DNA of 62,148 nucleotides from a virus, in IMG/VR virus record IMGVR_UViG_3300048778_000140, positions 1 to 62,148 of that record; one strand, written 5' to 3'. Made by a program: the position numbers and the translations under genes. Shown here one piece after another: positions 864 through 61,607 of this stretch. The notes under the pieces are model-generated. The model saw nothing but the letters and a program-made list of their open reading frames with translations. It made no database searches and was not told where the DNA came from. Within the stretch, counting starts at the first letter, position 1. Every line of letters starts with the position of its first letter.

Positions 864-1161
864 AGGATTGATGGCCCGCCTGGCCGAGATCATGCCCAAG
901 AAGCCGGAGCCGGTGTGGCCCAAAGATCAAAGGATGATCCTCAACTTGGAACCAATCCGGTACAGTGCCGAGGTGTTCCTGTCCTGGTTGGGAGACGATC
1001 TTCCCCAAGGACAATCTGAGGTTTTGGCTACTCTTTGGGTCTTTGGAGAACTGCTCTGCGGGGATATGGAAAAGATGATCAACCAGTCTTTCAAAATCGC
1101 AAATGATTTAGCCGCTTGCACAATCAGCCCCGTCCGGATAATGGACAAGGAGGTCCTGTGA
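847..1161 (+). CDS. Hypothetical protein, 104 aa
   Basis: No family is recognised. The ATG at 847 follows AAGGAG and gives a protein beginning MYPVPEGLMARL; the longer reading from 817 lacks a ribosome site. The last codons are written by a copy of the 15-bp repeat (1132-1146), giving SPVRIMD before the terminal KEVL. The stop overlaps the GTG start of the next gene. The protein is acidic to neutral with a helical C-terminal half. Confidence 0.65.
   Translation: MYPVPEGLMARLAEIMPKKPEPVWPKDQRMILNLEPIRYSAEVFLSWLGDDLPQGQSEVLATLWVFGELLCGDMEKMINQSFKIANDLAACTISPVRIMDKEVL
1132..1146 (+). repeat. 15-bp GTCC-N7-GGAC repeat, exact consensus
   Basis: GTCCGGATAATGGAC is followed directly by AAGGAGG and the GTG start of the 1158 gene, so it sits immediately upstream of a ribosome-binding site while coding the C-terminus of the preceding gene. 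Confidence 0.95.
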
Positions 1162-1421
1162 TTAAAACGACACACACCACCGTTAAAACGTGCGACAGAT
1201 GCAAGAAGGTCGTCCAACAACTTGGCACCTTAAAATTGAATCCGGTGGAACCCCGGGATTGGGACTTCCGAAGAGAGACGGTATTCTGGGGTGTCTCTGA
1301 GTTCGACAAAACCGTCGCCGATCTCTGCGACGACTGCTGGGACGAACTCATGCTCTTCTTGGGAAAAGAACCTTCTTGGTGGAAAAAGATGCTACGACCG
1401 TGGGAGAAGGAGACCCCGTGA
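1158..1421 (+). CDS. Small zinc-ribbon-like protein, 87 aa
   Basis: A CDRC knuckle near residue 12 and a CDDC knuckle near residue 61 suggest one zinc site. The GTG start at 1158 is chosen because AAGGAGG lies just upstream and the previous stop overlaps it (GTGA). The ATG at 1116 would lie deep inside the previous gene. The function is unknown; small CxxC proteins of this kind are common in phage early operons. Confidence 0.65.
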   Translation: MIKTTHTTVKTCDRCKKVVQQLGTLKLNPVEPRDWDFRRETVFWGVSEFDKTVADLCDDCWDELMLFLGKEPSWWKKMLRPWEKETP

Positions 1422-1633
1422 AGCGCCTAGTCATCGACGGAACCAAACCCGGGCCCCTCGACCTGCGGATAGAGGACAACAACTCTCCCTGGGGTTGGTT
1501 TATCCAGAAGCACATGCTAATGCAACCCGACGACTTCTCTGAATTGGTATTGCAAGGAAGCGACAGGTTTGTGGACTTTTTGAAGGAACTCGTAACCTAC
1601 GGATGTGGAGGAAAACATGACCTGGTGGAATAA
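1418..1633 (+). CDS. Hypothetical protein, 71 aa
   Basis: Read from the GTG at 1418, which overlaps the previous stop and follows GAGAAGGAG, this gives VKRLVIDGTKPGPLDLRI and an acidic C-terminus. No family is recognised. It is translationally coupled to both neighbours. Confidence 0.55.
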   Translation: MKRLVIDGTKPGPLDLRIEDNNSPWGWFIQKHMLMQPDDFSELVLQGSDRFVDFLKELVTYGCGGKHDLVE

Positions 1634-2060
1634 AAAGCCGAAGAAAGAACCCGAGACAGAAGAATCATTTCAGTCGGGATATGCTTGTTTGACAAATCAC
1701 CACGTTCTTAGGTCGGCTTGGGCGGTTTCCCCAACACCCAAAAACCCTTGGATAGTTTGCCCGGACTGCGGAGATTGTATGAAACCGGCAGTCCTCCGAA
1801 TAGTCGAACACGCACAGAAAGGAGGGTGGTTGCGGGAGGTGCCTTTGAGTGTAGAATTTGTCCGTTACCTGGACGAACCCAAACCCGAAAAGAAACCCAA
1901 AAGTGTGGCTCAGTACGAGTTGTGGCTGATCGAAGTTGAAAAGTACCTTCGTCGTTCCTTGTACCGGACAGAGATGTGCTTGGCCGCCGGGCTCTACACA
2001 CAACCATCTACTGCGAAAGATGCGGCGGCGGAGATTCGGAGATTGAGAGGGAAAAAATGA
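1617..2060 (+). CDS. Hypothetical protein, 147 aa, one CxxC
   Basis: The ATG at 1617 follows GTGGAGG. The protein has an N-terminal Lys/Glu-rich stretch, CPDCGDC near the middle, and a helical Arg/Lys-rich C-terminus with EVEKYLRR and AAAEIRRLRGKK. No family is recognised. The stop overlaps the next ATG. Confidence 0.6.
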   Translation: MTWWNKKPKKEPETEESFQSGYACLTNHHVLRSAWAVSPTPKNPWIVCPDCGDCMKPAVLRIVEHAQKGGWLREVPLSVEFVRYLDEPKPEKKPKSVAQYELWLIEVEKYLRRSLYRTEMCLAAGLYTQPSTAKDAAAEIRRLRGKK

Positions 2061-2263
2061 GCCTGTGCGCCTCGCATTGGAAACCAACCGGGGAATGCGA
2101 TTGCCCTTTTACGGGCTTTTGTTGTGAATGCGGGTCCCCTTGTAAGGACCACGATCTTGTTGGGAACGCTACAGAGCAGGACGGCCTGGGCGAGTGGCCA
2201 AAACATTGGTGTAACAACTGTATTAACACGCACCTAGAAGAAGATGCAAGGAGTAACGCATGA
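2057..2263 (+). CDS. Cysteine-rich small protein, 68 aa
   Basis: The protein carries Cys at CDC, CCECGSPC and CNNC plus several His, so it probably folds around zinc. The ATG overlaps the preceding stop (ATGA), as does its own stop with the nuclease start at 2260. No family name can be given. Confidence 0.6.
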   Translation: MSLCASHWKPTGECDCPFTGFCCECGSPCKDHDLVGNATEQDGLGEWPKHWCNNCINTHLEEDARSNA

Positions 2264-3447
2264 GTTTTCTGTACACCAGCGCCTCGGGGCGGGAAGTCGC
2301 CCACGGGTCTTCGTCGTCATTGGATCAGTTCCGGTTCTGCCGCCGCAAGTTCCGGCTGTCCCGCGTAGACGGGTGGAAGGAAAAGGCTAAGAAAGCCAGT
2401 TTGGAATTTGGAAAGTGCATCGAGGCCGCGATCCAGTTCTACTGCGACAACGGGAAGAAACCAGGAGAAGCTACTTCGGAATTCGAGCGCCTGTGGCTCA
2501 AGTGGTCCGATAACAAGGAACTGGTCTACACCGCCCAGGAGAACAACTGGTTCGATCTCTACACGATGGGCAAGGAGATGACTAAGCTCTTCGAGATTCT
2601 GCTCCCGACCCTGCCCATCAGGAATCCGAAGTGGCAGCTACAATTCTTGAAGAAGCTGTGGCCCGGGACCGACCTGGACGACCTGGAATTCATGGCATAC
2701 ATCGACTTGCTGTCTACCCTGGAAGACGGATCACGCTTGGTGCTCGACATCAAAACCGCAAAATCTGCTTTGGAAGCAGACCCTAAGTTGTTGACTATGG
2801 ACGGACAACTTCGAAAATATGCGTGGGTTACAGGATGCCGGGACGTGGGATTCCTCAATTTCGTGAAGGCCGGGAATCCAAACGAGTTCCGCAAAGGAAC
2901 GGTAGTAACTCTGCTTTCGGACGTTCGAGAACTTGGGTGGGACGCCGGACGACCTTTGGTAGTAGTAAAAACCGAGGAGATAACCGACCCCCTTGTCAAC
3001 AGCAAGCTCGCTCTCGTCGTTGGGGTCGCCGAAGATGTCCGGATAATGGACGAAGCCTTGGAGCAGATAAAAGGAAAGGGAAGCACCGAAGCCAAATCCC
3101 AAGTGTTGGCGGACTACCTGTTGGAAGGAAAGTTGTGTAAAGTAACCCGCGAATCCGTGACCCGCGTAAAAATCCAACTGGTGAAAGGCACAATACCCGA
3201 AGAAGAAATGGCCGAGATCGGGCAGCAGATTGGTACGGACATGATGGCAATCCGAGAAGCCTCTAAGTCCAATGCTTTCTTTATGGATGGCGGTACGAGA
3301 TTTCCGAACGCAATCTGTGTATGGTGTTCCTTCAATTCTATCTGCCTTCGAGACAACAAGAGGCGCGATGAAACTTTAGTCAAGATCGGTCCCGCAGCAA
3401 AAGAGGATGACTGGCTTACCGAATTAGAAGCCGGGGAGGAAGAATAA
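2260..3447 (+). CDS. PD-(D/E)XK nuclease, Cas4/RecB-like
   Basis: The 395-residue protein begins with SSSSLDQFRFCRRKFRL, the typical entry motif of the PDDEXK_1 (Cas4/RecB/AddB) nuclease group. The catalytic Asp then follows in FMAYIDLLSTL and the D-x-K pair in RLVLDIKTAKS (residues about 147-170). CVWCSFNSIC near the C-terminus, with the early Cys, could ligate an iron-sulfur cluster as in AddB and Cas4. In phages this family processes DNA ends during recombination or replication. A copy of the 15-bp repeat (3037-3051) is read in frame as VRIMD. The family is confident; exonuclease polarity is unknown. Confidence 0.8.
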   Translation: MSFLYTSASGREVAHGSSSSLDQFRFCRRKFRLSRVDGWKEKAKKASLEFGKCIEAAIQFYCDNGKKPGEATSEFERLWLKWSDNKELVYTAQENNWFDLYTMGKEMTKLFEILLPTLPIRNPKWQLQFLKKLWPGTDLDDLEFMAYIDLLSTLEDGSRLVLDIKTAKSALEADPKLLTMDGQLRKYAWVTGCRDVGFLNFVKAGNPNEFRKGTVVTLLSDVRELGWDAGRPLVVVKTEEITDPLVNSKLALVVGVAEDVRIMDEALEQIKGKGSTEAKSQVLADYLLEGKLCKVTRESVTRVKIQLVKGTIPEEEMAEIGQQIGTDMMAIREASKSNAFFMDGGTRFPNAICVWCSFNSICLRDNKRRDETLVKIGPAAKEDDWLTELEAGEEE

Positions 3448-3767: not shown

Positions 3768-4525
3768 TTCTCATAAGCGACACGCACGGCCAGCACCGGA
3801 AATTTGCAATCCCGGAGGGAGACGTTTTGATCCACGCAGGGGACTTCATGTACTCCGGACGATACATGATGGAGATCAGTGACTTCAACGATTGGCTGGG
3901 CTCCCTCCCACACAAGCATAAAGTTGTGGTGGCAGGAAATCACGACATCCTGTTTGAAACGCAGCACGGTTCTCGGGCTCTGTTGACCAACGCAACCTAC
4001 TTGGAAAACTCCGGGGCGGTGATTGAGGGGCTCAAATTTTGGGGTTCCCCCGTCCAACCGGAGTTTAACGACTGGGCATTCAACGTAAAAAGAGGGCAGG
4101 ACATTAAGAAATACTGGGATATGATCCCCGACGACACCGACGTTCTGATTACGCACGGTCCTCCGTGGGGACTGCTAGATCAGATTCGTCCGGGACGGGA
4201 AGTTGAGCATCTGGGTTGCGGGGAGTTGCTCAAAGCTGTCCGCCGAATCAAACCAAAGCTGCATGTCTTCGGGCACATCCACGGGGGGTATGGGACGTTC
4301 AAAGAAGGACCCACCCAATTTGTAAATGCTTCTCTCTTGAATGAAGCATACAAGCCGGTGAATGCTCCAATTGTAGTAGACTTTCAAAGCGAGAAAGACT
4401 TGGTAGCCAAACTCCCCGCGTTTCCCCTCCCCCGGCAGAAAGAACTTACGGATCGGGAGCTTGCGCTGTTGGTTGACATGCTGACCGAAGAACCGAAAAT
4501 TGTGGGCGGGAAGTTGTCCGAATAG
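3758..4525 (+). CDS. Calcineurin-like metallophosphoesterase, 255 aa
   Basis: All the metal-site blocks of the family are visible in order: ISDTHGQ (about residue 6), HAGDFM, VVAGNHD, THGPPWG and VFGHIHGGYG. They form a two-metal phosphoesterase active site acting on phosphodiesters or nucleotides; the substrate is not predictable. It ends LSE followed by a degenerate repeat (GTCCGAATAGTGG), where TAG overlaps the GTG start of the second phosphoesterase. Confidence 0.85.
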   Translation: MRVVLISDTHGQHRKFAIPEGDVLIHAGDFMYSGRYMMEISDFNDWLGSLPHKHKVVVAGNHDILFETQHGSRALLTNATYLENSGAVIEGLKFWGSPVQPEFNDWAFNVKRGQDIKKYWDMIPDDTDVLITHGPPWGLLDQIRPGREVEHLGCGELLKAVRRIKPKLHVFGHIHGGYGTFKEGPTQFVNASLLNEAYKPVNAPIVVDFQSEKDLVAKLPAFPLPRQKELTDRELALLVDMLTEEPKIVGGKLSE

Positions 4526-5031
4526 TGGCAAACATATTCTTCATCTCGGATACCCATTTCGGACATGCGGGGATTCTTTCCTTCAAGAAAGAGGATGGTT
4601 CTCCCCTTCGGCACTTTGCTTCTGTCCAGGAAATGGACCAACACACCATCGACCGATGGAACTCCGTCGTGCGCCCGCAGGACCATGTCTACCATTTGGG
4701 CGATGTGGCAATGAAGAAGTCATGTTTGGAGACGATCTCCCGCTGCAACGGACATCTACGCCTGGTGAGGGGAAACCACGACATATTCCCTACCAAAGAA
4801 TATCTGAAGTTCTTCGACGAAATCTACGGGGTGCGCGTGCTCGACGGCATGATTTTCACCCACATACCGATCCATCCCGAGAGCCTGGGACGGTTCAAGG
4901 CCAACGTACACGGCCATACCCACGGATCGCCTTACGGAAAGTTCGGGCCCCGGTACATCCATGTCAGCGTCGAGGCCGTGGACTACGTTCCGGTTTCGCT
5001 GGAAGATTTGAAACTGAGGTTGTCCGAATAA
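4525..5031 (+). CDS. Calcineurin-like metallophosphoesterase, 168 aa
   Basis: This short member has FISDTHFGHA at the N-terminus, YHLGDVAM, LVRGNHD, and FTHIPIH plus VHGHTHG at the C-terminus. It resembles the YfcE/YkuE-like compact enzymes. The GTG start at 4525 overlaps the previous stop. Like its neighbour it ends LSE, written by a copy of the 15-bp repeat, which suggests tandem duplication of a gene plus junction unit. Confidence 0.85.
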   Translation: MANIFFISDTHFGHAGILSFKKEDGSPLRHFASVQEMDQHTIDRWNSVVRPQDHVYHLGDVAMKKSCLETISRCNGHLRLVRGNHDIFPTKEYLKFFDEIYGVRVLDGMIFTHIPIHPESLGRFKANVHGHTHGSPYGKFGPRYIHVSVEAVDYVPVSLEDLKLRLSE

Positions 5032-5036
5032 TGGAC
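5022..5036 (+). repeat. 15-bp repeat at stop codon and RBS
   Basis: GTCCGAATAATGGAC contains the TAA stop of the upstream phosphoesterase and is followed by AGGAG and the ATG at 5047. Confidence 0.9.
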
Positions 5037-5448: not shown

Positions 5449-5455
5449 TCCCGCT

Positions 5456-5551: not shown

Positions 5552-6181
5552 ATGAAAATCAAGAAAGAACTTCAAGCAGTGTGTGCAGGATTTGGGGTTA
5601 AGGCCGGGGGCTACCAATCGACCTGGGAGGAGATTCAAACGCTGGCGACCGTCCACTCGGTCGGGGCTGTTGTCAGAGACTTCGAGGATTGGATGCAGGA
5701 GTACCGGGGTGACGATTTCCCGCAGGGGGCCGTCTCGAAGTACCTCCACGTCGCTGCGGAGCGCCTGGGGGCCGATTCTTCCCCCGCAGCAGCCTCTCTG
5801 AAGTCCCCAGAGGTAGTTTCCCTTGTCCGGGAGCTTGTCTACGCAGCAGACGGCCAACTGAGCTTCATAGACAAGCAAAAGATTCGACTAGCGGAAGTCC
5901 TGAAAGAGTTCTCGCAGGAAGAAGTGGTCTCCGTCTTCAAGACCTGGCTCAAGGACCAAGACCTGACCGACGCCAAAAACCTATCGTTTGCCCCGGGGAA
6001 GTTCGTCCAGGTAGTGGACAGCTTCGCCTACTGTGCCCGAAGGCGGAGGGAAGAAGCCAAGCGGACGGCGGTTCTTCGAGAAGCGGCAGTTGCCCAACTC
6101 CAGGCCCAGGCCGAAGAAGAGAGAGCGGAGTCCGAGAAGAAGAAAATGGCGGAAGACTCTCAGTTTGACCCTTTGGCTTGA
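5552..6181 (+). CDS. Hypothetical protein with C-terminal coiled coil, 209 aa
   Basis: The ATG follows AAGGAGAAGAA. Residues 1-150 are helical and neutral with no recognised family. From about residue 155 the chain becomes Arg/Glu/Lys/Gln rich (RRRREEAKR, QAQAEEERAESEKKK), which predicts a coiled coil. It lies just upstream of a strong extended -10 promoter. Confidence 0.6.
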   Translation: MKIKKELQAVCAGFGVKAGGYQSTWEEIQTLATVHSVGAVVRDFEDWMQEYRGDDFPQGAVSKYLHVAAERLGADSSPAAASLKSPEVVSLVRELVYAADGQLSFIDKQKIRLAEVLKEFSQEEVVSVFKTWLKDQDLTDAKNLSFAPGKFVQVVDSFAYCARRRREEAKRTAVLREAAVAQLQAQAEEERAESEKKKMAEDSQFDPLA

Positions 6182-6945: not shown

Positions 6946-8812
6946 GGACCTCGATGCCCTAAAATCCGACCCCGGAGTTCTCCGGATATACGGGCAACTT
7001 GTTCCCGGTCTGAAGAAGGCAGGGAACAAGTACGTCGGCTGCTGTCCATTACCCGGACACAACGACAAAACACCCAGTTTCACGATCTTCCAGGACATGC
7101 GGTGCTCCTGCTTCGGTTGCGGGGAAAACCTCAACATTTTCCAACTCATCCAAAAAGTGGAAAACTGCGATTTTGCAACGGCGGTCGAGCGCGTGAAGAA
7201 AGAACTGGGACAGTCCGATTGGGAAGCTACTAAGCAGAAAGTGGAGTCTACTTTCAAGCCCGTTGCCGAGCCTAAGACCTACCGGACACTACCCCTATCT
7301 TCCTGGACCAAGCTGGAAACTGCTCTGGCCAACTCCAAGGATGCTGTCCATTATCTGGACAAAGAGCGCGGAATAACACTTGCGACTGCGCAGCAGCTTA
7401 GACTTGGGTTTGTGCAGAACATTGGTAACCTGACAGGAGAGCAGGGAGCCGACATCGCCGACCAAGGCTGGTTGGCCTTCCCTTGCATAGAGGGCAACCA
7501 GATCGTCTCTGTCAAATACCGCAGCCTGCAAAGGAAAAAGCCTGGTGGGTTTGCCCGGCAGCCAGGAATGGCGACTGCTCTGTGGAACACGGAAGCCATC
7601 GACTGTTTTGAACCTGTCTACCTCGTAGAAGGAGAATTTGATTGTGCTATCTTAGCGCAGGCCGGGTACAACGCTGTTTCTGTTCCAAGCGCCGGGACAA
7701 AACTAACCCCAGCCCAGAAAGACCAACTGATGCAAGCCTCGATGGTTATCCTATCCGGGGACACCGACCAGACGGGCTCTTCTTATATGTCGAAACTTTG
7801 GCAAGAGCTTGGGACGAAATGCTATCTGCTTTCCTGGCCTTCGCCAATGAAAGACGCGAACCAGACGTTTCTTGAGCACTGCGGACGAGACTTAGACAAG
7901 TTCCGGGCCCTGGTCGAGGAACTGACGAGCAAGGCTAAGTCACAGCCGATGCCCGACATCTATTCCATTCAGGAAGTCATGCAACACGGAGAAGACACTA
8001 GCCTCGTGGACCGAGCCGACCGGCTGCGATTTCCTTGGAAAGCGGTGGACGAAATGGCGGTGCTGCTTCCGGGCTCCGTACTGGGTTTGATGAGCACCAG
8101 CACCGGCCAAGGCAAGACTTGCTATTCTTTGCAATTTAGTTTATTTGGGTCTAGGAAATACAACGAAGTTGTGATAAATTGGCAATGCGAATTGTCCCCG
8201 TCTGAACTCGCCGTAATGGTAGCGGCTCAGGTTCTACATAAGAACAGGAATTTCCTATCCAAAGCAGATTTGAAACAGGCGGCGGATCAACTCAGTGACG
8301 CTCAATACTACGTGGGCAATAATTCAACCATCAACAACATCATGGACGTTCTGGATTTGATGGAGGCTGCTGTTCGGCGCACCGGGGCTACAGTTTGTGT
8401 ACTGGATAACTTGACCTTTTACACAACGGGAGTGGATGACGAGGTTCGAGTTCAAGCAGCAGCAATGAAGCGCATCAAGCAAATGGCCATTCAATATGGA
8501 TTGAAATTTATTGTCGTAAGTCAGCCAAGGAAGGCTTCGGCTCAGTCCAAAGGAAAGAAAACACATATCTCTGACGCAAAAGGATCAGCCAGTCTTGGAG
8601 ACACGTGCGACAGCTTCATGGCCCTTCATCGGGAATTGTCCAAGGATACGGACGGGACTGGTGTCAATGATCCGTATGAAGAGAAAACGCTAATCGAGAT
8701 GCTGAAGACGAGGTCTAAAGGTTTGGGAAAGTCCAGCACGACTCTCCAGTTCTTCGGAGAGTTCGCAGAATTTCAAGCCATCGAGAATAATTACGAAGGA
8801 GCACCAGAATGA
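6938..8812 (+). CDS. Primase-helicase (CHC2 zinc finger, Toprim, DnaB-type helicase)
   Basis: The 624-residue protein has the T7 gp4-like order. A CHC2-type zinc finger runs over residues 28-60 (CCPLPGHNDKTPSF, then CSCFGCG). A Toprim primase domain follows with VYLVEGEFDCA and ILSGDTDQTG. A RecA-fold helicase domain comes last, with Walker A STSTGQGKT (about residue 388) and Walker B VCVLDNL. It would make primers and unwind DNA at the phage fork. The TTG at 6938 follows GAGGAG. Two copies of the 15-bp repeat are read in frame. One (7044-7058) writes the zinc-finger CPLPG, an insertion relative to the usual CPFH form. Confidence 0.9.
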   Translation: MTEDLDALKSDPGVLRIYGQLVPGLKKAGNKYVGCCPLPGHNDKTPSFTIFQDMRCSCFGCGENLNIFQLIQKVENCDFATAVERVKKELGQSDWEATKQKVESTFKPVAEPKTYRTLPLSSWTKLETALANSKDAVHYLDKERGITLATAQQLRLGFVQNIGNLTGEQGADIADQGWLAFPCIEGNQIVSVKYRSLQRKKPGGFARQPGMATALWNTEAIDCFEPVYLVEGEFDCAILAQAGYNAVSVPSAGTKLTPAQKDQLMQASMVILSGDTDQTGSSYMSKLWQELGTKCYLLSWPSPMKDANQTFLEHCGRDLDKFRALVEELTSKAKSQPMPDIYSIQEVMQHGEDTSLVDRADRLRFPWKAVDEMAVLLPGSVLGLMSTSTGQGKTCYSLQFSLFGSRKYNEVVINWQCELSPSELAVMVAAQVLHKNRNFLSKADLKQAADQLSDAQYYVGNNSTINNIMDVLDLMEAAVRRTGATVCVLDNLTFYTTGVDDEVRVQAAAMKRIKQMAIQYGLKFIVVSQPRKASAQSKGKKTHISDAKGSASLGDTCDSFMALHRELSKDTDGTGVNDPYEEKTLIEMLKTRSKGLGKSSTTLQFFGEFAEFQAIENNYEGAPE

Positions 8813-9323: not shown

Positions 9324-10390
9324 ACATCGCCGCCACCGACCTCAAACATGCCCTCAAGCGCCTATCCGGCGTGAAGACGGAGACCTACCAAGTCAGCGAG
9401 ACCTCGGTCTCCGCACAAGACAGTGATGCCTGGGTTGTCGTCGATTGTCCATTATCCGGACTTGGTTCGGCCTTCAACATCGCGGGCAAGAAGTTATCGT
9501 CCGTGGTCAACAGGATGTCGGGCCAAATCGAGATTCTACGCGAAGACAAGAAGCTGACACTCCGTTCTGCCAAGGCGAGGATCGAGCTTGAAATCCAACC
9601 GGCAAAAACACCGGCAACCCCGAGCCAACCGGACAAGGTGCTGTCCCTGCCTGCCGCAGAATTCAAACAGGCTCTGGCCCTCGCTTTTGCCTCCGCATCT
9701 CCCGCCAAATCAGCGCCGTTCGGGGGCTGTGTCCAGCTTCAAAGCTTGGGTTTGGGTCTTGAGGAGGAAGGACCGAAGGGCTACCGGATCACCGGCACAG
9801 ATGGTATCATTCTGACCACGGTCAACGCCAAAGTGGAACTTCCCTTCGAGTTCCGGATGCTCCTGAACCTGACTGCGGCATCCATTGTCCAACTAATGGA
9901 TGGGGCCCAAATCGAAGTGGGTGAAACCAATACCCACCTGAAGATAACCTCCGGCGGCACAACGGTCTACGCCTCGAAGCCAATCCAGACGTACCCAAAT
10001 TATGACAGCTTGCTGTCCGCCGTTCCTCACACAAAACTGAGCTTTCTCGCGGAAGACCTGCTGTCCGTCCTGCGCACGGTCGAGCCTATGGTTGATGAAT
10101 CAGTAGACCAAGGGGCTGTCGCTTTACATTTCAAAGACGGTGTGGTACAATGTCTTAGTGGGGGAGTGGGGAGCGCGGCCCAGGACGAAACGGTTTACGA
10201 GCAGATTGACCCCGACCCGATCTTCGAACCCCGAGAAGTCCGCTTGAAGCTGAACGTCAAGTACCTGTCCAGTTTCCTTTCCAAGACTAAAGGACCGGCG
10301 GTTTTGAGCATTACGAACAAGCCCGTCTTTCTGGAGTCCGGAAACATGCTGGTACTGACCATGCCGATGCTTACCAAGGAGAAGAAATGA
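9320..10390 (+). CDS. dnaN: DNA polymerase III beta-like sliding clamp
   Basis: At 356 residues it matches the length of bacterial beta clamps. Three tandem clamp-like domains can be followed, with LPAAEFKQAL opening domain 2, YRITGTDGIILTTV as the strand typical of DnaN, and VRLKLNVKYLSSFL in domain 3. A phage clamp would tether the replicative polymerase, which here is outside the window or supplied by the host. Repeat copies at 9447-9461 and, degenerate, 9887-9901 are coded in frame. Confidence 0.75.
   Translation: MNIAATDLKHALKRLSGVKTETYQVSETSVSAQDSDAWVVVDCPLSGLGSAFNIAGKKLSSVVNRMSGQIEILREDKKLTLRSAKARIELEIQPAKTPATPSQPDKVLSLPAAEFKQALALAFASASPAKSAPFGGCVQLQSLGLGLEEEGPKGYRITGTDGIILTTVNAKVELPFEFRMLLNLTAASIVQLMDGAQIEVGETNTHLKITSGGTTVYASKPIQTYPNYDSLLSAVPHTKLSFLAEDLLSVLRTVEPMVDESVDQGAVALHFKDGVVQCLSGGVGSAAQDETVYEQIDPDPIFEPREVRLKLNVKYLSSFLSKTKGPAVLSITNKPVFLESGNMLVLTMPMLTKEKK
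10123..10151 (+). promoter_or_regulatory. Internal promoter candidate inside the clamp gene
   Basis: TTTACA (10123-10128), a 17-nt spacer and TACAAT (10146-10151) with the TGTGG extension match a sigma-70-type promoter. The downstream gene is the secreted-type protein at 10387. Confidence 0.45.
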
Positions 10391-10746: not shown

Positions 10747-11450
10747 CCGATCTTGAAATTCTTCCCCCGGTCAACTCAGAAGCGGCGCAGCAGAAACAGA
10801 CAGAGATCGACGGGCTTCTCGAACAAATCTCTGCCCACGAGCTACGCCTGGCCAAACACTTCGCTCGCCTCTCCCGCTTGGTCCGGGAAGTGAAGGTCGA
10901 GCAGTATTGGATTCCCTTGGGGTATGACCGCTTCACCTCCTACTTGGAAGTAATCCGAAAGAAGATAGGGAGGGAACGCAGCCAGATGTACGCCGTGCTC
11001 TCCGTGTCAGAAGTTTTACACCCTTTTCTGACAGACGAGGAGCTTGAGACCGTCGGAATCACAAAGGCGCACGAACTCAAGCGCCTGGTCAAACAAGGAG
11101 GCAGGGTAGACGCGGAGGTTCCCGGGCTTTTGAGCCCCGTCCGGATAATGGACTTTGCTGCTGATCCAAAGACAACAGCTTTAATGCTCCGCGCCAAAGT
11201 CAGCGAGTTGCTACACGTCCACGAAGCTCCGAAGGGGTTGTGGTACGAGTTTGACCCTCCCGGGTTCTACGCCACCGCAGACGAACGGAAAGAGATCGCG
11301 GAGTTTTGGGAACTCGGAAAACTGATTTTGCAGGATACGTTCGAGTCCGAGCACGAAGAAAAGAAGCAGGTGTTCTTGGCCGCAGCCCGGGAATCCACAT
11401 CAACTTGGAGAGGGGAGTTGGCGAATGCCGAGCAAACTCGTCCGCGTTGA
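10743..11450 (+). CDS. Hypothetical DNA-binding-like protein, 235 aa
   Basis: The ATG at 10743 overlaps the preceding TGA. The N-terminal half is helical and reads like the fertility-inhibition/ParB-associated or DUF3102-type helical proteins (IGRERSQMYAVLSVSEVL, then GITKAHELKRLV). That would fit a helix-turn-helix region around residues 70-110. No catalytic motif is present. A 15-bp repeat (11139-11153) is read as VRIMD in the middle. Confidence 0.5.
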   Translation: MTDLEILPPVNSEAAQQKQTEIDGLLEQISAHELRLAKHFARLSRLVREVKVEQYWIPLGYDRFTSYLEVIRKKIGRERSQMYAVLSVSEVLHPFLTDEELETVGITKAHELKRLVKQGGRVDAEVPGLLSPVRIMDFAADPKTTALMLRAKVSELLHVHEAPKGLWYEFDPPGFYATADERKEIAEFWELGKLILQDTFESEHEEKKQVFLAAARESTSTWRGELANAEQTRPR

Positions 11451-11835
11451 ACTCGGGGATGAAGGACGCCCAATCCGAATTTTCAGGGACAAGTCCTGGC
11501 TGACGTGCGAGAACCCCGTCCAGTTAATGGACAGAGCTAGGGCTGTTCTCTCGATTAGAGAGCAGGTGTTTTGGCGGGCGAGAGACTTCAAGAATATGCG
11601 CCCCGTATTTTGTATCGAAGCCTACGCCTGTGAACGCTGCGGACGACGAATAACCTGGGAGACCTTTGAAATGAACGAAATCCGGCCCAAGGGGGCCGGG
11701 GGAGGTAAGACCGGCGGAGAAGTTTCCCTCGAAAATTGTGAGGCATTGTGCCACCAATGCCACCAGGGTAGTCCAGATTCCGCTCACGGGAATCGGCGGT
11801 GGCAAACAGCAAAACTCGATCCCGAAGGATCATAA
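11425..11835 (+). CDS. HNH-type endonuclease-like protein, 136 aa
   Basis: The C-terminal half has the zinc-ribbon HNH layout: CERCGRRI, then EMNEIRPKGAGG, then SLENCEALCHQCHQ. The usual first His is replaced by the EMNEI context, so activity is uncertain. It starts inside the 3' end of the previous gene. A repeat copy (11518-11532) is read as VQLMD. It may be a free-standing homing nuclease. Confidence 0.65.
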   Translation: MPSKLVRVELGDEGRPIRIFRDKSWLTCENPVQLMDRARAVLSIREQVFWRARDFKNMRPVFCIEAYACERCGRRITWETFEMNEIRPKGAGGGKTGGEVSLENCEALCHQCHQGSPDSAHGNRRWQTAKLDPEGS

Positions 11836-12355: not shown

Positions 12356-12754
12356 ATGGGCGTATCGAAAACAGTAACGGTTATTTGCGATTATTCCAAA
12401 TGTTTGGGCAACAAAACCGGCCCGGCTGTGGTACAATGGAATGAGACGGATGTCTCGTCTGGAAAAGCCGAACTTCCGGAAGAAGCAAAGTACCTGGTCC
12501 TCATCACGCACAACAACATTCAAAAAGCCTTTTGCTGTCAACTACACGCGGCGGAATACTTCCTTCCCCCCGGGTACGAAGCGAAGCAGAAACAAGTGAT
12601 TGAGTTTCCAACCCCGAAGGAAGAGCCGGGACCTTGCCCGCCGATGCGTGCTTGGGTGGATGAACCGCTTCGGTCAGAAGAAAGTCCGGATAATGGACAA
12701 TCCGGTTTTGTCTACGGCGAGAAGAACAACGGACCGGGAGGAATCAACGAATGA
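12356..12754 (+). CDS. Hypothetical protein, 132 aa
   Basis: Beta-rich N-terminus with CDYSKC and a single later Cys. The C-terminal third is disordered and includes a repeat copy (12684-12698) coding SPDNGQ. It overlaps the next gene by ATGA. No family is recognised. Confidence 0.6.
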   Translation: MGVSKTVTVICDYSKCLGNKTGPAVVQWNETDVSSGKAELPEEAKYLVLITHNNIQKAFCCQLHAAEYFLPPGYEAKQKQVIEFPTPKEEPGPCPPMRAWVDEPLRSEESPDNGQSGFVYGEKNNGPGGINE

Positions 12755-13391: not shown

Positions 13392-13894
13392 TGGGAATAT
13401 CAAAGCACGGCGGAAACCCGAACTATAAACCGCCAACGAAGAAAGCCAAGACGCAAGCGCAACTCGACCGCGCCACAGACCTTCGGCTGCAAAAAGCGTA
13501 CAACATCACCTTAGCCGACTATGAAAAAATGGAGAAGACCCACGGGGGCAAGTGTTGGATAAGCGGAAGACCTCCAGGTTCAAGGCGGTTGCACGTCGAT
13601 CACGACCATAGCTGGAAGAAGGTAAAAATCACCACCAGCAAACTTTCCGAAACGGGCAATTGGGTGGCAACAGCGAATTACCTTCACACGGACTACACGG
13701 GGTACGGAGCCAAGAAGTCTTTGGCTGTTCGAGAAGTCAAACGTAAACTGCTTCGTGCTTCGGTTCGGGGGCTGCTCACATACTCCATCAATGCGGGGTT
13801 GCAGAAATTTTCAGACGACCCAAAACTTCTTAGAGTGGCGGCGGACTACCTTGAGAAACACCAAGGTCCATTAACTGGACAGGAGACAACATGA
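13391..13894 (+). CDS. Endonuclease VII-like / HNH nuclease, 167 aa
   Basis: Read from the ATG at 13391, which overlaps the FmdB stop. The protein has LQKAYNITLADYEKM, then CWISGRPPG, then LHVDHDHSWKK, followed by KRKLLRASVRGLLTYSIN. This matches the EndoVII order (Y.LT..Y..M, C..CG, VDHDH, RGLLC..CN), but the zinc cysteines are mostly lost (CWIS, LLTY). It is probably a diverged EndoVII-type homing nuclease. The longer frame from 13091 crosses two other small genes and is not used. Confidence 0.7.
   Translation: MGISKHGGNPNYKPPTKKAKTQAQLDRATDLRLQKAYNITLADYEKMEKTHGGKCWISGRPPGSRRLHVDHDHSWKKVKITTSKLSETGNWVATANYLHTDYTGYGAKKSLAVREVKRKLLRASVRGLLTYSINAGLQKFSDDPKLLRVAADYLEKHQGPLTGQETT
13866..13880 (+). 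repeat. 15-bp repeat upstream of RBS
   Basis: GTCCATTAACTGGAC is followed by AGGAGACAAC and the ATG at 13891. It is the reverse orientation of the common form. Confidence 0.9.
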
Positions 13895-15124: not shown

Positions 15125-15298
15125 ATGAAACTGCCTGACTCAGTGGTTGAAGGTTTGAGAAAGATAGCGGGCCGCCCCCTGTTGGACTACACCTTCGCCT
15201 TCGGGGAAGACCGCGACATCTACGAAGCGGGAGTCCTGGACGGGGGAGCAAGCTTGGCGCAGTATGTTCTGGACGGTCTTGAAAAGGAGTCCGAATAA
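15125..15298 (+). CDS. Hypothetical protein, 57 aa
   Basis: The ATG at 15125 follows AAGGAGCAGC. It begins MKLPDSVVEGLRKIAGRP and ends EKESE with its TAA provided by the 15-bp repeat. It is helical and of unknown role. Confidence 0.6.
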   Translation: MKLPDSVVEGLRKIAGRPLLDYTFAFGEDRDIYEAGVLDGGASLAQYVLDGLEKESE

Positions 15299-48034: not shown

Positions 48035-48043
48035 TAACTGGAC
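48029..48043 (-). repeat. 15-bp repeat in gene-poor gap
   Basis: Plus-strand GTCCATTAACTGGAC between the KTSC-like gene and the doubtful ORF. Confidence 0.9.
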
Positions 48044-49761: not shown

Positions 49762-52413
49762 CTAGCTGGACGATGTCTGCGCCTGAATACGCTGTCTGTT
49801 ACCCGTTTAGAATCAACGGACTGACTCATTTCTGGTCAGTTCATACGGTTTTCTTTCCCGTATGGTCGGACTATTGCATGTCCTTTCGGACCCACTTCGC
49901 TTAGTCTCTCAGCCTGCTTTCGCTTGGCCCTCCTTGGCATTTCAGCGTCGGAGTCAATCAGAAGGGGTTTATCCTGCGCCGTTGTGTTAACGCAGTGTCA
50001 TTGTAGAACCCGGCGGCTCTGTTACCTCGTCCAGGTAATGGACGCGGGCAAGTCGTTTCTGTTCCGCTTGCCTCATACGGTTCGTTTCCCGTATGCCCAG
50101 ACTGTTGCATACCCTTTCGGGTCTTCTTCGCTCAGTCGTTCACGGTCTCTTTCGAGTTCCGCCTCGTTGGCATTTCAGCGTTCGAGTCAATCAGAAGAAG
50201 TTTTACCTGCGCCGATGTTTTAACGCAGTGTGTTGGTGTAGCGAACGTTGTAGCTCACCCACGGAGACTACTTACATCAACTTTGTTGTCGGAGGCTGGG
50301 TTTGGTCACCACCGATTTGCCGAGCGGGGTCAGAACTGGAACCCTGCTCAGGTGCGCTCTGGATAAACAGCTTGTAGTTCTTGCTGTTATCATTCGGGTT
50401 TTTGCCCAGGAAAACGCTGAAGATCGCGTCTTCACCGAAAATATAAGTGTTATAAACTCTCTGTTAACTGCTGTGTTATCAGCAAGATACGTCATTTCTG
50501 CGTATCTCTCATACTTCATTTCGTATGAGAACGGACTATCGCATCGTCCATTACCTGGACGCCCCATCGTTTAGTCTCTCACGGTCCCTTTCGGGTTCCG
50601 CCTTGTTGGCTTCTCAGCTTCCAAGTCGATTAGACGGGGTTCTCATTCGAGGGTTTCACCTCGATGACGCCTACATTATTGACGTGTTGCCACTTATAGT
50701 CACGGTCGGAGCAGTTGTGGTTTGTTTGAACGTTACGCCAGCGAACGAGATAACATCCTCGTTCTTCGGCAGTTCAAACAGCATGGAACGCATGGAGTCG
50801 TCGCGCTTGATGATGTCGGACAATCCGTTGAAGGACGTGTCGTTCAGGATGTCGCGGACCACTGACGGGTGAATGATTCCGCCAAATTTGTTGTCCACGA
50901 GCGGACGTGCGTTCACGGCTACCAGGGACTGAGCGGCGGAACGAACGTTGTTGGCCGTCAGGTAGGAACCGTTTGCGAGTTGAATGTTGACCAGGTTGTC
51001 AATCGCAACAGCCGAGTCAGCGGTAAGCTGGACAAGGGTGTTGAGGGTGAGGGCCAAGCGGTAGTTCAACTCATTTGCGAGATTCTGGAGTAGACCGGGG
51101 TCGTCGATTGCGACATCAAGTGCGAGGTCGCTAGAATTTATAAAATCGGCGTATTGCCCAATTGTGGCCAAAATCTTGTTGCTGGATTCAGAGATCGGAC
51201 TTCCGACAGTGCCTTCTGCGGACTGGTTCAGGTTAGCGGAAAGCAGTGCGTAGGTGTAGACTTTATGTGTTTAGGCCGTCAGCATCTCTGCTGGGGCGCT
51301 CTCGTCGTCGCCGACGAGAACAGGCTGTGTCTTCGGATTATTGAGAAAACGAATTGCATCGCACAACTTCTTACGAAGCTCCCTATTTGGAGTTCTTGGA
51401 AGACGGACAAGCTCTAGAGCTATCTTGGCTTGCGGCCTCTTTGTTCTCAGGTAGGGTAGCACTTGGAGTAGAAAACTTTTGCGGTTCTCTTTTCCGGTGA
51501 GTTCCCAAGTGTAGAACTCTCTGGTGTTTCCTTTGGCTTCTTGCGTGTGAAACCACCCGCCGTACAACCGCAGAAACAACTGGATAAGAGGGGCATAATT
51601 GTTGCCCATTCTAATTCGTAGCATCGGTTTACCGTCAGGAGTAAAAGCTGCTGATATGCAACCTTCGCCGTCCATGATTCCGGCCACGTATGCGTGCGTT
51701 AGTTTGTCTTCAACAAACCCGTCTAGCGTGTCAGTCGTTACGCATTCCCTGTTTTTCATCCCCCGGATTTTGTCCATCAACTCTTTGCGTTTCGATGGGT
51801 TCTGCTGATCGCCGAGGTCGTAGAACTCCTGAAGTACCAGAGCCTCTTCCTTTTTGATTCGCAGATACGGAAGGATATAAGAGAGAAATTGTGGGGCGGC
51901 ATTCCTGCCGTTGATGTTCCACTGATACCAAACTTGGCCGCGTGCTGGCGTGTGCTTGGTGTAGAAGCCCCCAAAAGTTTCGACTAGCCCCTTTACCAGG
52001 GACAGTTCAACGCTGCTCATAACGATTCTAGGTTGGTAAGGAGTTGCTTTTCCGCCTTCTTTTACAGTCGGCTTGTATATCGAAAAGCACCCTTCCGCGT
52101 CCATCAAACCAGCGGCGTAGGCTTTTGTTCTTTCTCTCATAGGGTCTTTGCTCGGCATTGTCTGCTCCAATTATTATACTACCACACCGATAGTATTTTG
52201 TCAAGCAGATTTTCACCGATTTAGCTAGATTTTAATTCAGCACCATAGATACTGAATCTGGTTGCCTTGGCGCAACGGCAGCGGACGCTGCTTGGTCATG
52301 CTAAGGAATGGAGTGTTTGCCTTCAGGTTAGGAATTGCTTCCCGCTCGTAGTGAATTGCTACCAAGTTGGGGAGAGCGCCCGAGGTGACTATACTGGCTG
52401 GTGAATAACTCAT
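49762..52413 (-). CDS. Major capsid protein (N4-gp56 family), split into five exons
   Basis: Exons, in minus-strand order, are 52413-52251, 51260-50682, 50456-50223, 50013-49990 and 49791-49762. Joined, they read MSYSPASIVTSGALPNLV..., QIQ-FYTYALL, SGNT-FYNTYIFGED, TNTLR-PGSTMTLR-RIQAQTSSS, which matches the N4-gp56-type coat protein from end to end. Boundaries were placed using protein continuity, a U-G pair in P1 and a G at each intron end. Exon 3 has a problem. After QIGG the frame meets TAA (50274-50272) directly beside TAG (50270-50268), and the next family block WVSYN is in another frame, so about 46 nt must be bypassed, removed, or are in error. Confidence 0.8.
49792..49989 (-). ncRNA. 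Group I intron D (198 nt, no ORF)
   Basis: P1 is identical in design to intron C (CTGCGT with GCGCAG). P7 is GACTA/TAGTC (49869-49873 with 49902-49906). P8 is GTCC-GAAA-GGAC (49880-49891). The 3' boundary after ACAG joins CGT codons in frame and an ACG/CGT P10 is possible. Confidence 0.8.
50014..50222 (-). ncRNA. Group I intron C (209 nt, no ORF)
   Basis: P1 is exon CTGCGT with intron GCGCAG, closing in U-G. P7 is GACTG/CAGTC (50100-50104 with 50133-50137), a compensated version of the pair in B and D. P8 is closed by GAAA. A repeat copy (50029-50043) lies 16 nt before the 3' splice site. Confidence 0.8.
50457..50681 (-). ncRNA. Group I intron B (225 nt, no ORF)
   Basis: P1 pairs exon ACGT(C) with GGCGT, ending in U-G. 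P7 is GACTA/TAGTC (plus strand 50534-50538 with 50572-50576). The core GAAGCTGAGAAGCC...GGCGGAACC is shared with introns C and D. The stem between the P7 halves (P8 position) is GTCC-AGGTAAT-GGAC, a copy of the genome-wide 15-bp repeat (50546-50560), where introns C and D have a GAAA tetraloop. Confidence 0.8.
51271..52170 (-). CDS. LAGLIDADG homing endonuclease, 299 aa
   Basis: Two LAGLIDADG helices are seen, AYAAGLMDAEGCFSI (about residue 14) and AYVAGIMDGEGCISA (about residue 160), so it is a single-chain enzyme with both catalytic acids present. It lies wholly within intron A of the capsid gene and would cut intron-less capsid genes to spread the intron. Confidence 0.95.
   Translation of the reverse strand: MEQTMPSKDPMRERTKAYAAGLMDAEGCFSIYKPTVKEGGKATPYQPRIVMSSVELSLVKGLVETFGGFYTKHTPARGQVWYQWNINGRNAAPQFLSYILPYLRIKKEEALVLQEFYDLGDQQNPSKRKELMDKIRGMKNRECVTTDTLDGFVEDKLTHAYVAGIMDGEGCISAAFTPDGKPMLRIRMGNNYAPLIQLFLRLYGGWFHTQEAKGNTREFYTWELTGKENRKSFLLQVLPYLRTKRPQAKIALELVRLPRTPNRELRKKLCDAIRFLNNPKTQPVLVGDDESAPAEMLTA
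52172..52204 (-). promoter_or_regulatory. Promoter of the LAGLIDADG gene
   Basis: Minus strand TTGACA (52204-52199) followed after 17 nt by TAGTAT or after 21 nt by TATAAT, with TGTGG before it. The ATG at 52170 follows almost at once, with GGAGCAGAC as ribosome site, so the transcript leader is very short or an upstream transcript is used. Confidence 0.5.
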
Positions 52414-53612: not shown

Positions 53613-53627
53613 GTCCATTATCCGGAC
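53613..53627 (-). repeat. 15-bp repeat upstream of scaffold gene
   Basis: Plus-strand GTCCATTATCCGGAC between the 77-aa gene and the scaffold start; intergenic. Confidence 0.9.
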
Positions 53628-53630
53628 GGG

Positions 53631-54840: not shown

Positions 54841-54855
54841 GTCCGGGAAATGGAC
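54841..54855 (-). repeat. 15-bp repeat downstream of portal gene
   Basis: Plus-strand GTCCGGGAAATGGAC in the gap between portal and the 121-aa gene. Confidence 0.85.
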
Positions 54856-56981: not shown

Positions 56982-56996
56982 GTCCATTAACCGGAC
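56982..56996 (-). repeat. 15-bp repeat upstream of portal gene
   Basis: Minus-strand GTCCGGTTAATGGAC, 39 nt before the portal ATG. It overlaps the stop of the preceding gene. Confidence 0.9.
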
Positions 56997-57267: not shown

Positions 57268-57660
57268 TTAACCTCTTGATGTAGGCGCGAAGCCCAGGGT
57301 TGAGTTGTTCGTTAATTGTGGTGTCGGGGCAGACGCGCCCCACATGCTTATGGGCTTAGCCCCTTGTTGTTTAGGGAGAAGCCCGGGAGGAAAGTTCGGA
57401 GGAAGCGCCGGTCCATTATTCGGACCAGGGGGCGGGGTCGTCCACCCGTTGGGGCGGTCTACTTTGAGATGCGGCTGAAACGTAATTCCGAAGATTTCAT
57501 ACGTTCCGTTGTTTTCCACGTCCGAGGCGTTGCGCGGCATTTTGCTTATGAGCCGCTGTCCGATAGGTATGTTCCACCGGCTAGGAGTAGACAGGTGGTC
57601 CGCGTCGTGTGTGTAGAGGACCGTTCCGTCATCATCTTGGATTTCTACGTGGAGTTTCAT
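57268..57660 (-). CDS. Hypothetical protein, 130 aa
   Basis: Beta-rich N-terminus (MKLHVEIQDDDGTVLYTHD) and a Pro/Gly-rich tail that includes a repeat copy (57411-57425). Overlaps the terminase stop by one base. No family. Confidence 0.55.
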   Translation of the reverse strand: MKLHVEIQDDDGTVLYTHDADHLSTPSRWNIPIGQRLISKMPRNASDVENNGTYEIFGITFQPHLKVDRPNGWTTPPPGPNNGPALPPNFPPGLLPKQQGAKPISMWGASAPTPQLTNNSTLGFAPTSRG

Positions 57661-59700: not shown

Positions 59701-59715
59701 GTCCGGGTAATGGAC
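59701..59715 (-). repeat. 15-bp repeat directly before terL
   Basis: Minus-strand GTCCATTACCCGGAC followed by AACT and the ATG at 59696. Overlaps the stop of the DUF6496 gene. Confidence 0.9.
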
Positions 59716-60241: not shown

Positions 60242-60568
60242 TTATGGTGCTGGTGTGGTGGGTGGTTGAACTTGCTGGGTTGCGTTCGGTGCCCGGTTGT
60301 TCACGGCGTCCGCGCTGTATTTCAAACCGGCAAGCACTCCGCAAAGCATAGTGGCGAACGTTCCGACCGACCCGACAAAAGTAACGATGTCAGTGACCGA
60401 GATGGCCCCGTGGAGTTTGTAAATCAGGCAGCTAATCCAGGACAGGGCCGCTGTCACCACCATCAAGATACAAACCTTAGTGTTGCTAACCGTCCCGTCT
60501 TTGTCAGACAACTGCGACCGCAGGAACCCCGCCGCCCAGTTGCCGCCTAATGTTGAAGTTCCGTTCAT
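60242..60568 (-). CDS. Holin-like membrane protein, 108 aa
   Basis: The start at 60568 overlaps the upstream stop (TAATG). Two hydrophobic helices (CILMVVTAALSWISCLIY and DIVTFVGSVGTFATMLCGV) separated by a short loop, with a Pro-rich tail. The topology fits a class II holin. No lysin lies beside it. Confidence 0.55.
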   Translation of the reverse strand: MNGTSTLGGNWAAGFLRSQLSDKDGTVSNTKVCILMVVTAALSWISCLIYKLHGAISVTDIVTFVGSVGTFATMLCGVLAGLKYSADAVNNRAPNATQQVQPPTTPAP

Positions 60569-61200
60569 TACTTTTTCCCAAGGGCATAGGCCGTGCCACC
60601 CGCGACAACAGCCGTAATCCCGATGATTTTTGCGTCGTGCCGGAACCTCTGCCAAAACGTACCGCCTTTAAGCGCGGTCTTATAGGCATCCCGTTGGGTA
60701 GTAGTTTCTTTCAGTTCGTCCACAGTCGTTGCTTGAGTAAGAGTACACGCTGAGAGTTTCGCGCTGTTTTCTTCGCAGTTAATGGCGTAGTCCTGAAGGG
60801 TCTTCAAATCCACGGCAGGAATCTGAACTACAGGAGCAGACGGAACTTCCGTTGGTTTTCCGTTCACGACTTGTTGCGTCGGAGGAGGAGTAACCACTTG
60901 CAAGGGCTGAGCCAGATTGGGAAACAACTTGGAGGCCGAAATGACAATCTGCTGCGGAGTCGCTGGGAGGCTTCTTGCTGATTCCAAATCGGACAGTCTT
61001 GCCGCCAAGTCTGTTTGAACTTTGGCTGCGTTAGCTTTGTCCGCCTGAATCTGCGTCTGGGCAGTAGCCACCGTTGCCTCGGCCTTGATGCGGGCGTCGT
61101 GCTCTTGTAACCATTCGTAGGCACCAAAGATCAGAACCGCAGCGACGACAGCGGTAACGATCCAGCCCAGCTTCGAACTTGGAACGACGGTGGTTGTCAT
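60568..61200 (-). CDS. Membrane-anchored coiled-coil protein, i-spanin-like, 210 aa
   Basis: An N-terminal membrane helix (GWIVTAVVAAVLIFGAYEWL) is followed by a coiled coil and Pro-rich linker, then a second helical part. The topology recalls Rz-type inner-membrane spanins, and the neighbour is holin-like. A C-terminal hydrophobic stretch (IIGITAVVAGGTAYAL) is atypical. Confidence 0.5.
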   Translation of the reverse strand: MTTTVVPSSKLGWIVTAVVAAVLIFGAYEWLQEHDARIKAEATVATAQTQIQADKANAAKVQTDLAARLSDLESARSLPATPQQIVISASKLFPNLAQPLQVVTPPPTQQVVNGKPTEVPSAPVVQIPAVDLKTLQDYAINCEENSAKLSACTLTQATTVDELKETTTQRDAYKTALKGGTFWQRFRHDAKIIGITAVVAGGTAYALGKK

Positions 61201-61575
61201 TTACATTCCTTGCTGCGGCGCGGGAGCCGGGGGTCCGCCCGGTCCGGGGGCTGCCGCTCCTGCGGCTGCGGGTCCTGCTTGAGACATATCCGGAGAAGGA
61301 GCGGCCTGCGGAACGGGGGCCTGATCTCCCATGTTGGCATCCATGTGCGAATGCAAGGCTTCGAGGTCTGGGAGGACATGCTCTTCATCCGGCTCGGGAG
61401 CCGTGTCGGGAGAGTTGGGGTCTGCGTCGTGAATATGCTTGGCGATAAAGCCGCCAGACTTACCGCGCCGGATATGAATTTCCTTTGGGTGCTTCTTGGT
61501 CTTCGACTTCTTGGAGGACTTCTTGCTGCCCCCGCTCATTGCGGAATGAGCCCGGGATGTTTTTTCTTCTGCCAT
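61201..61575 (-). CDS. Hypothetical protein, basic N-terminus and Pro/Ala tail, 124 aa
   Basis: KHPKEIHIRRGKSGGFIAKH is a conserved phrase seen in small phage proteins of unknown function. A Lys-rich segment precedes it and a Pro/Ala/Gly tail follows. Confidence 0.6.
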   Translation of the reverse strand: MAEEKTSRAHSAMSGGSKKSSKKSKTKKHPKEIHIRRGKSGGFIAKHIHDADPNSPDTAPEPDEEHVLPDLEALHSHMDANMGDQAPVPQAAPSPDMSQAGPAAAGAAAPGPGGPPAPAPQQGM

Positions 61576-61592
61576 ATTGGTTTCCTTTGTGC

Positions 61593-61607
61593 TGTCCGGG
61601 TAATGGA
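61593..61607 (-). repeat. 15-bp repeat between two small genes
   Basis: Plus-strand GTCCGGGTAATGGAC, 18 nt upstream of the ATG at 61575. Confidence 0.9.

Follow-up and report, generated by a model that had tools for sequence, protein, structure and literature searches.

The inspection of the IMG/VR virus record IMGVR_UViG_3300048778_000140 (62,148 bases, analysed over its whole length and here called the window) showed a 15-bp near-palindrome, GTCC-N7-GGAC, to be scattered over the genome in 43 exact copies, against 1.27 expected (100 dinucleotide shuffles: standard deviation 1.14, maximum 5). The array is conserved in related phages and its specificity has changed in one lineage. The pattern is not enriched in the putative host family and, in other phages, comparable arrays are associated with a family of proteins homologous to the phage protein g82. 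The sites are probably operators of one phage-encoded, likely dimeric protein, for which g82 is the best candidate, acting on the whole genome; binding by g82, the dimer model and an organising function are what we infer from these observations. The record has terminase and head-tail adaptor matches, and codes for a DNA primase/helicase and a 3,043-aa protein.

An earlier note, made from the letters of the window, had described this array with 39 starts and about one copy expected by chance. The excess was borne out, and no shuffle came near the observed count. All 39 starts were present, except that 61593 should read 61594; four further pattern matches lie at 1860, 4158, 6005 and 26848. As for six copies termed degenerate, those at 6190, 9887, 45676 and 48478 are one base off the pattern, and those at 4516 and 52787 two bases off. 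Only the 7-base spacing was enriched: the same arms at other spacings (3-6, 8-12) occurred in 0-5 copies each, and GTCC-N7-GGAC was the top dyad of the window in a dyad scan. Once oriented, the sites follow the consensus GTCC-RR-N-TAAT-GGAC, a consistently asymmetric near-palindrome in which one half-site is mostly GTCCAT(TA) and the other GTCCGG, GTCCAG or GTCCGA; the preferred forms vary between phages. The proposal that the inner bases covary so as to keep the arms complementary failed, positions 5/11 being complementary in 11 of the 43 copies and positions 6/10 in four of the 43. Restriction sites were considered only; enrichment, not avoidance, speaks against them.

Conservation of the array and its altered specificity

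The pattern was searched for in 28 records chosen by hand among the matches listed. Nineteen were clearly enriched (the reversed pattern gave 0-7 copies in these 19), with 76 copies in G002 (a 97-kb sister contig, protein-identical to the window from about 2 kb onward), 60 in G006, 56 in G007, 53 in G018, 40 in G011 and 30 in G004. Eleven related contigs of at least 29.8 kb held 25-76 copies each. Seven records, which had been reached by single matches only, were not enriched, and two records of one lineage, G013 and G016, contained only six and five copies.

Sites at equivalent positions in relatives, whose absence the earlier note would have counted against the array, were confirmed. When the G002 sites were mapped via orthologous genes onto seven relatives, 31-46% coincided with a site within 20 nt, against 1.5-2.7% in shifted controls (coinciding/mappable sites: G006 20/45, G007 19/44, G018 18/39, G011 14/31, G004 15/39, G008 11/24, G013 12/39). 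The G013 lineage was matched with [TG]TCC-N7-GGA[AC] in this and in the analyses of placement, orientation and spacing. For sites within genes, the eight arm bases were 75% identical, compared with 54-56% in the flanking codons (134 site-relative pairs, six GTCC-type relatives), which argues for selection on the DNA beyond that on the protein. In the G013 lineage the arms were only slightly above the flanks (about 0.61 vs 0.525; 26 pairs, several unaligned; mean of columns).

A dyad scan of G013 revealed TTCC-N7-GGAA in 31 copies against 2.66 expected, the same geometry with the outer base altered. At the place homologous to window position 29220 this phage has TTCCAGATAATGGAA, in which both outer bases are altered together. 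Since most sites changed together in the lineage, the sequences point to a reader acting in trans whose specificity changed. No second TTCC-type lineage was found among eight records counted from the matches listed: an 8.7-kb record held two sites, G137 eight in 76 kb (mostly off consensus, with a reversed control of 0 and no such array in the first 40 kb), and the others 1-3.

Among named matches, the terminase was closest to that of Tunturiibacter phage Tunturi_3 (27% identity; host Tunturiibacter), and a portal-profile scan of genome contigs found one relative (51% identity), on a 50.7-kb contig of a Candidatus Sulfotelmatobacter metagenome-assembled genome (MAG). These two matches suggest that the hosts of the window phages are probably Acidobacteriota. 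The more distant MAG phage contained a weak further form, TCCG-N5-CGGA (11 vs 2.3 expected), as well as GTCC-N7-GGAC (7 vs 0.8); a dyad scan of Tunturi_3 found no comparable array. In a host-type MAG, KTCC-N7-GGAM was not enriched (460 vs 449 control matches), and 100 genomes of its family yielded 24 matches in 20 genomes against 42 for the reversed pattern (table summed). As the presumed host family shows no enrichment, a phage protein is the likely binder. A nucleoid-associated or partition protein of the host seems a very improbable reader: ParB and Noc, which are host proteins, do have comparable palindromic sites, but there is the lack of enrichment in the MAG and family taken as host, and the motif varies between related phages.

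Placement and orientation of the sites

Gene junctions were favoured, 19 of the 43 window sites touching non-coding DNA against 3.7 expected (genes were called with a simple in-house caller). Site centres most often fell 17-24 nt before a called start codon, immediately 5' of the Shine-Dalgarno (SD) sequence; they peaked again at -2, a TAATG within the site there forming a stop/start junction (the caller may have placed some starts there). Many sites lie mid-gene, five pattern matches falling inside one 9-kb gene. The start-codon peak would suit an RNA element in which GUCC and GGAC pair into a hairpin ahead of the ribosome binding site and control translation or processing. Such an element is highly unlikely, as 107 of 330 oriented sites are opposed to transcription with the same asymmetric half, an arrangement unacceptable to an RNA loop reader, and many sites are mid-gene.

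The average density was about one site per 1.4 kb. Against a null model with the share of gene-junction sites preserved, the spacing in the window was over-dispersed, with a coefficient of variation (CV) of 0.55 vs 0.96 and no spacings below 300 bp against 7.0 expected. Over-dispersion was similar in G002, G004 and G024, and weaker in G006, G007 and G013. With respect to transcription, the asymmetric sites of nine mutually related phages were co-directional in 223 cases and opposed in 107 (about 2:1). The bias reached p < 0.05 individually in G007, G004 and G013 only; G002 had 36 co-directional and 25 opposed sites (p 0.20).

The earlier note had likened the sites to the stoperators or start-associated sequences of mycobacteriophages. 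The operator-like, genome-wide distribution stood, as did the association of many sites with starts; the strict polarity of stoperators was not found. Stoperators of cluster A/CA phages are likewise short operators scattered through a phage genome, between genes or at their ends, but are asymmetric and lie in one orientation relative to transcription (PMC13313380, PMC4351075), unlike the near-palindromic window sites of mixed orientation. The start-associated sequences of cluster K are closely linked to translation starts (PMC4351075), whereas the window sites are often mid-gene and near-palindromic. Silencing of the stoperator type, in which a phage repressor (possibly g82 itself) at many sites blocks elongation for lysogeny or superinfection immunity, is a less likely though serious explanation. 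It would account for the sites at gene ends and starts, for the 2:1 bias and for the tyrosine-recombinase gene conserved in several relatives. However, the sites are not strictly polar and are over-dispersed inside genes too, no repressor family is among the 13 Pfam families found in a scan of 50 early G002 proteins, and the portal-profile scan of genome contigs returned the 50.7-kb MAG contig as its one relative.

Because the array is over-dispersed, present inside long genes too and not strictly tied to the direction of transcription, it would seem to act on the genome as a whole, and the spacing of sites over structural and early genes alike suggests a role for the whole molecule rather than for promoters. 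Organisation or marking of the phage DNA is favoured; dampening of transcription ranks second and is compatible with it.

The candidate binder g82 and the arrays of SM1-type phages

The gene for g82 (window 10743-11450, +) was detected by tblastn in G006, G007, G018, G011, G004, G008, G009, G013 and G016 besides G002, and was absent from Tunturi_3; the MAG phage encodes a 31% identical homologue. The AlphaFold model (mean pLDDT, the predicted local distance difference test score, 79) has an all-helical N-terminus. In a structural second look, the top eight rows were all ParB, Spo0J or Noc chains (Z 8.4-7.1), aligned over residues 7-160 (one row to 216). The predicted ParB-like fold is a lead, not proof. 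No CTPase domain was seen in g82 (Pfam, predicted model), so ParB-like sliding would not be expected, and a Pfam scan of 50 early G002 proteins, a part of its proteome, detected no ParA family. The g82 profile gave a best E of 0.076 against PDB sequences, with unrelated names; tblastn at E 1 found no named phage and one doubtful plasmid match.

In ParB, residues G170, K171, S172 and R173 contact parS, R173 bonding the outer guanine, and in Noc a Q at the R173 position goes with an adenine in the Noc sites (PMC7383237). Residues G76-R77-E78-R79 of g82 align with these contacts by motif, not by residue-level structural alignment, and R79 may be the counterpart of R173. Among 14 aligned g82 proteins (L204, which contains a stop codon, was excluded), residue 79 is K solely in the G013 protein; a tie between R79K and the outer-base change of G013 is suggestive only. 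In the mechanism proposed, the sites would be double-stranded DNA operators spaced more or less evenly along the genome, and a g82 dimer would bind one GTCC half-site per subunit, the outer G being contacted by R79, the N-terminal arginine of the recognition helix. A dimer on two half-sites is suggested by the near-palindrome, the changeable outer base and the fold. The array would then decorate, anchor or condense the phage DNA, which might also dampen transcription globally.

Among viral structures, g82 matched best a 449-aa protein from Pseudomonas phage SM1 (Foldseek: probability 0.99, E 0.03), which by its length is taken to be SM1_050. The SM1 genome, examined after this match, contains TGCAA-N4-TTGCA in 30 copies against 0.12 expected, so the array predicted there from the candidacy of g82 was found. 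Comparison of g82 with SM1_050-like profiles in hhalign gave a probability of 94.65 (E 6.4e-8, 103 columns). The SM1_050 domain matched DUF3102 (PF11300) with 16.2 bits (E 0.013), below the curated cut-off of 24.4 bits, and none of seven g82 proteins matched DUF3102 by Pfam. An SM1_050-type protein was found by tblastn in 43 records. Strong arrays were present in four of five further SM1-type genomes (50 kb of each): TGCA-N6-TGCA in Vibrio phages VH2_2019 (21 vs 0.53 expected) and KarBoss (12 vs 0.61), and TGCAA-N4-TTGCA in Rhizobium phages RHph_I4 (25 vs 0.07) and L338C (27 vs 0.07). In these four and SM1 the spacing was even (CV 0.32-0.57 vs 0.88-0.96) and non-coding DNA was favoured. Aeromonas phage HJ05 (26 kb) showed variants of TTTGAAAC-N2-GTTGCAAA at eight places, a consensus drawn post hoc from the same sequence.

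In IMG/VR, 17 loci encode an SM1-type protein, SM1 and L338C themselves included. Ten of the 15 new loci exceeded the best dispersed-dyad score of 29 chance-picked control loci (each at least 10 kb, on average shorter than the 17 test loci, among which L406/L407 and L403/L405 look related). A site lay within 250 bp upstream of the start of the SM1-type gene in nine of the 17 loci, compared with 81 of 442 other genes (Fisher p 0.0018; the limit was set after the positions were seen), as expected of autoregulation. Stand-alone proteins with a ParB/Noc-type DNA-binding domain, each paired with tens of parS-like sites at roughly even distances and of lineage-specific sequence, could thus form an unnamed class of whole-genome organising system, a proposal made tentatively. 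It would span two or more phage groups with no other apparent relationship: the Acidobacteriota-associated family of the window, and the SM1-like phages of Pseudomonas, Vibrio, Rhizobium and Aeromonas.

Several observations weigh against g82 as the binder of an organising array. The switch in G013 is incomplete (31 TTCC..GGAA, six GTCC..GGAC and 18 mixed sites), and some homologous in-gene places keep GTCC or are half-changed. R79K is one evolutionary event, and the G013 protein differs in 17 of 62 otherwise invariant columns too. The spacing is uneven in G011 (CV 1.22) and marginal in G018, and the co-directional bias is unexplained by a purely architectural role. For g82 itself, occurrence is shared with many other core genes, so presence alone is non-discriminating. 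It was not found in the 70-kb G001, which has 54 sites; this contig looks like a fragment, nearly all neighbouring window genes lacking too. The gene has no site just upstream, the nearest lying within it. Unrelated rows begin at Z 6.8, practically level with the ParB rows, and such Z values may reflect a common helical arrangement; the Foldseek E-values are not significant (best PDB 0.83, best viral 0.03); and Pfam at E 10 found neither a ParB domain nor ParB_N in seven g82 proteins, a missing match not being excluding. Vibrio phage 1.215.B has an SM1-type gene and no strong array in the same scan (a sparse variant, 6 vs 0.53, came from a post hoc consensus of the same sequence), and five of the 15 new IMG/VR loci were not above the controls. 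Dispersed arrays are not confined to these phages: two of 14 control contigs (33-40 kb of each) have regional palindrome arrays with no detected homologue, and among the 15 controls of that scan a third, G136, owed its high score to a local tandem repeat.

Binding by a phage tyrosine-recombinase-like protein is improbable. The model for it is MrpR, the recombinase-fold master repressor of SPbeta (PMC10516654). Its operator SPBRE, like the window site, measures 15 bp and occurs at several genome places, and is bound by that one phage protein, but with nine peaks in chromatin affinity purification sequencing it has far fewer sites (PMC10516654). A recombinase-like protein is present in G002, G006, G007, G018 and G013. 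The Arg, Lys, His-x-x-Arg and Tyr residues are invariant in these five sequences, so that the recombinase looks largely intact, unlike MrpR with its lost catalytic residues; moreover, the G007 protein is 284 aa as called vs about 370, though G007 has its 56 sites. The G002 gene lies at 11765-12874 (L135), and its product has Asp where His or Trp is usual.

Two other candidates were set aside. Nothing was found to link an extracytoplasmic function (ECF)-like sigma factor (window 11836-12354, +) to the sites; it is kept among relatives at only 30-37% identity, a fast-evolving phage sigma. A 133-aa winged-helix gene (5047-5448) and a 209-aa gene (5552-6181) look like a replication initiator. We take this pair (5047-6181, +), by eye, to be probably a replication initiator or helicase loader split over two genes; the counterpart of the 209-aa gene has a longer N-terminus in G013, G018 and G006.

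Related systems, coordinates and neighbouring genes

Dispersed palindromic repeats without known function were described in 2015 in cluster O mycobacteriophages (Corndog and relatives), as more than 30 dyad-symmetric copies of the 17-bp TGTTCGG-N3-CCGAACA (PMC4351075). Like the window sites, they come in tens of copies, inter- and intragenic, at positions mostly kept among relatives (five genomes, little orientation; PMC4351075). They differ in sequence and spacing, are unevenly distributed in 31 kb of Firecracker (CV 0.94), and show no lineage-wide sequence switch in the parts examined. Firecracker and Catdawg have 25 copies each in 31 kb. Cluster O phages encode a ParB-like protein; the authors counted gp90 among three DNA-binding candidates and deemed a role in genome stability unlikely (PMC4351075). 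Firecracker gp94 has an N-terminal ParB_N domain, a Pfam match not seen in g82. The cluster O array may be linked to its ParB-like protein, and the organising class proposed above may extend to these repeats.

ParB-parS, Noc-NBS and KorB share with the window palindromic sites and a DNA-binding domain of similar predicted fold. In ParB/Noc the outer-base specificity was changed via R173Q at the recognition helix (PMC7383237). KorB is a cytidine triphosphate-dependent clamp (PMC11790492); g82 differs from these proteins in that no CTPase domain was seen, and the window in its tens of sites in a phage genome. A literature search for such arrays found only the works cited, most subscription journals being outside the search. 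With a candidate binder, a natural change of specificity, and isolates having the same kind of protein plus an array (SM1, Rhizobium L338C, Vibrio VH2_2019), the question is directly testable. If the organisational role is true, phages would own a spaced genome-landmark system built on a partition-protein DNA-binding module, which could also serve to image phage DNA in cells or to pull it down.

Table 1. Pattern matches and the gene of the candidate binder, in window coordinates
Feature	Position	Strand	Remark
Site GTCCGGATAATGGAC	1132..1146	+	gene end, just 5' of SD-like sequence
Weak site GTCCGTTACCTGGAC	1860..1874	-	
Site	3037..3051	+	kept at same place in 6/7 relatives compared
Pattern match GTCCTCCGTGGGGAC	4158..4172	.	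off consensus, probably chance
Site GTCCAGGAAATGGAC	4624..4638	+	
Site	5022..5036	+	includes stop codon of upstream gene
Site GTCCAGGTAGTGGAC	6005..6019	+	
Site	7044..7058	-	within primase-helicase gene
Site	7346..7360	-	within primase-helicase gene
Site	9447..9461	-	
g82, candidate site-binding protein, 235 aa	10743-11447	+	ParB/Noc DNA-binding-domain-like predicted fold
Site	11139..11153	+	within g82; counted as kept in 7/7 relatives compared
Site	11518..11532	+	
Site	12684..12698	+	
Site	13866..13880	-	
Site	15289..15303	+	at TAATG stop/start junction
Site	15668..15682	+	
Site	17613..17627	+	between stop codon and SD
Site	18597..18611	-	
Site	19471..19485	+	at gene end
Site	20237..20251	+	
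Site	22986..23000	-	within 9.1-kb gene
Site	24825..24839	-	within 9.1-kb gene
Site	25914..25928	+	within 9.1-kb gene
Weak site GTCCAGTTCCCGGAC	26848..26862	-	within 9.1-kb gene
Site	29220..29234	-	homologous place in switched lineage G013 is TTCCAGATAATGGAA
Site	31258..31272	+	
Site	32302..32316	+	counted as kept in 7/7 relatives by position (within 20 nt)
Site	33563..33577	-	
Site	37153..37167	-	
Site	38339..38353	+	directly 5' of SD and ATG of 37235-38329 gene
Site	41348..41362	+	
Site	43410..43424	+	
Site	44693..44707	-	
Site	45967..45981	-	kept in 6/7 relatives compared
Site	48029..48043	-	
Site	50029..50043	+	
Site	50546..50560	-	within an insert of capsid gene
Site	53613..53627	-	
Site	54841..54855	+	
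Site	56982..56996	-	
Site	57411..57425	-	
Site	59701..59715	+	just upstream of terminase start codon
Site	61594..61608	+	61593 in the earlier note

Regional ATTAA-N6-TTAAT and GTGA-N6-TCAC arrays were seen in two control IMG/VR phages, G138 (29383-38946, L363) and G139 (8991-21955, L364 and L365). At the left end of the window, genes 1-4 (to 1633) are 100% protein-identical to G024 and 60-86% identical, or without a match, in G002, while from gene 6 (2260) onward the identity to G002 is 100%; this break within 1-2000 would be a recombination junction or the mark of a chimeric contig. A megablast of window 20001-44000 against named phages gave no match. Identity of the 3,043-aa protein (20260-29391, -) is 35% to Tunturi_3 and 52-64% to those more distant relatives in which it occurs; its weak PHROG matches include an endolysin family.

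The major capsid gene (50223-52413, -), named after Tunturi_3, seems split when compared with a 327-aa relative: residues 1-55 are encoded at 52413-52249, 54-247 at 51264-50683 and 249-310 at 50454-50223. An Rfam scan of window 47500-54000 at E 0.1 gave no match. One insert contains an HNH endonuclease gene (51271-52158), and a GIY-YIG-type homing endonuclease gene (48825-49631, -) adjoins the capsid region; the interruptions are likely to be of the intron type.

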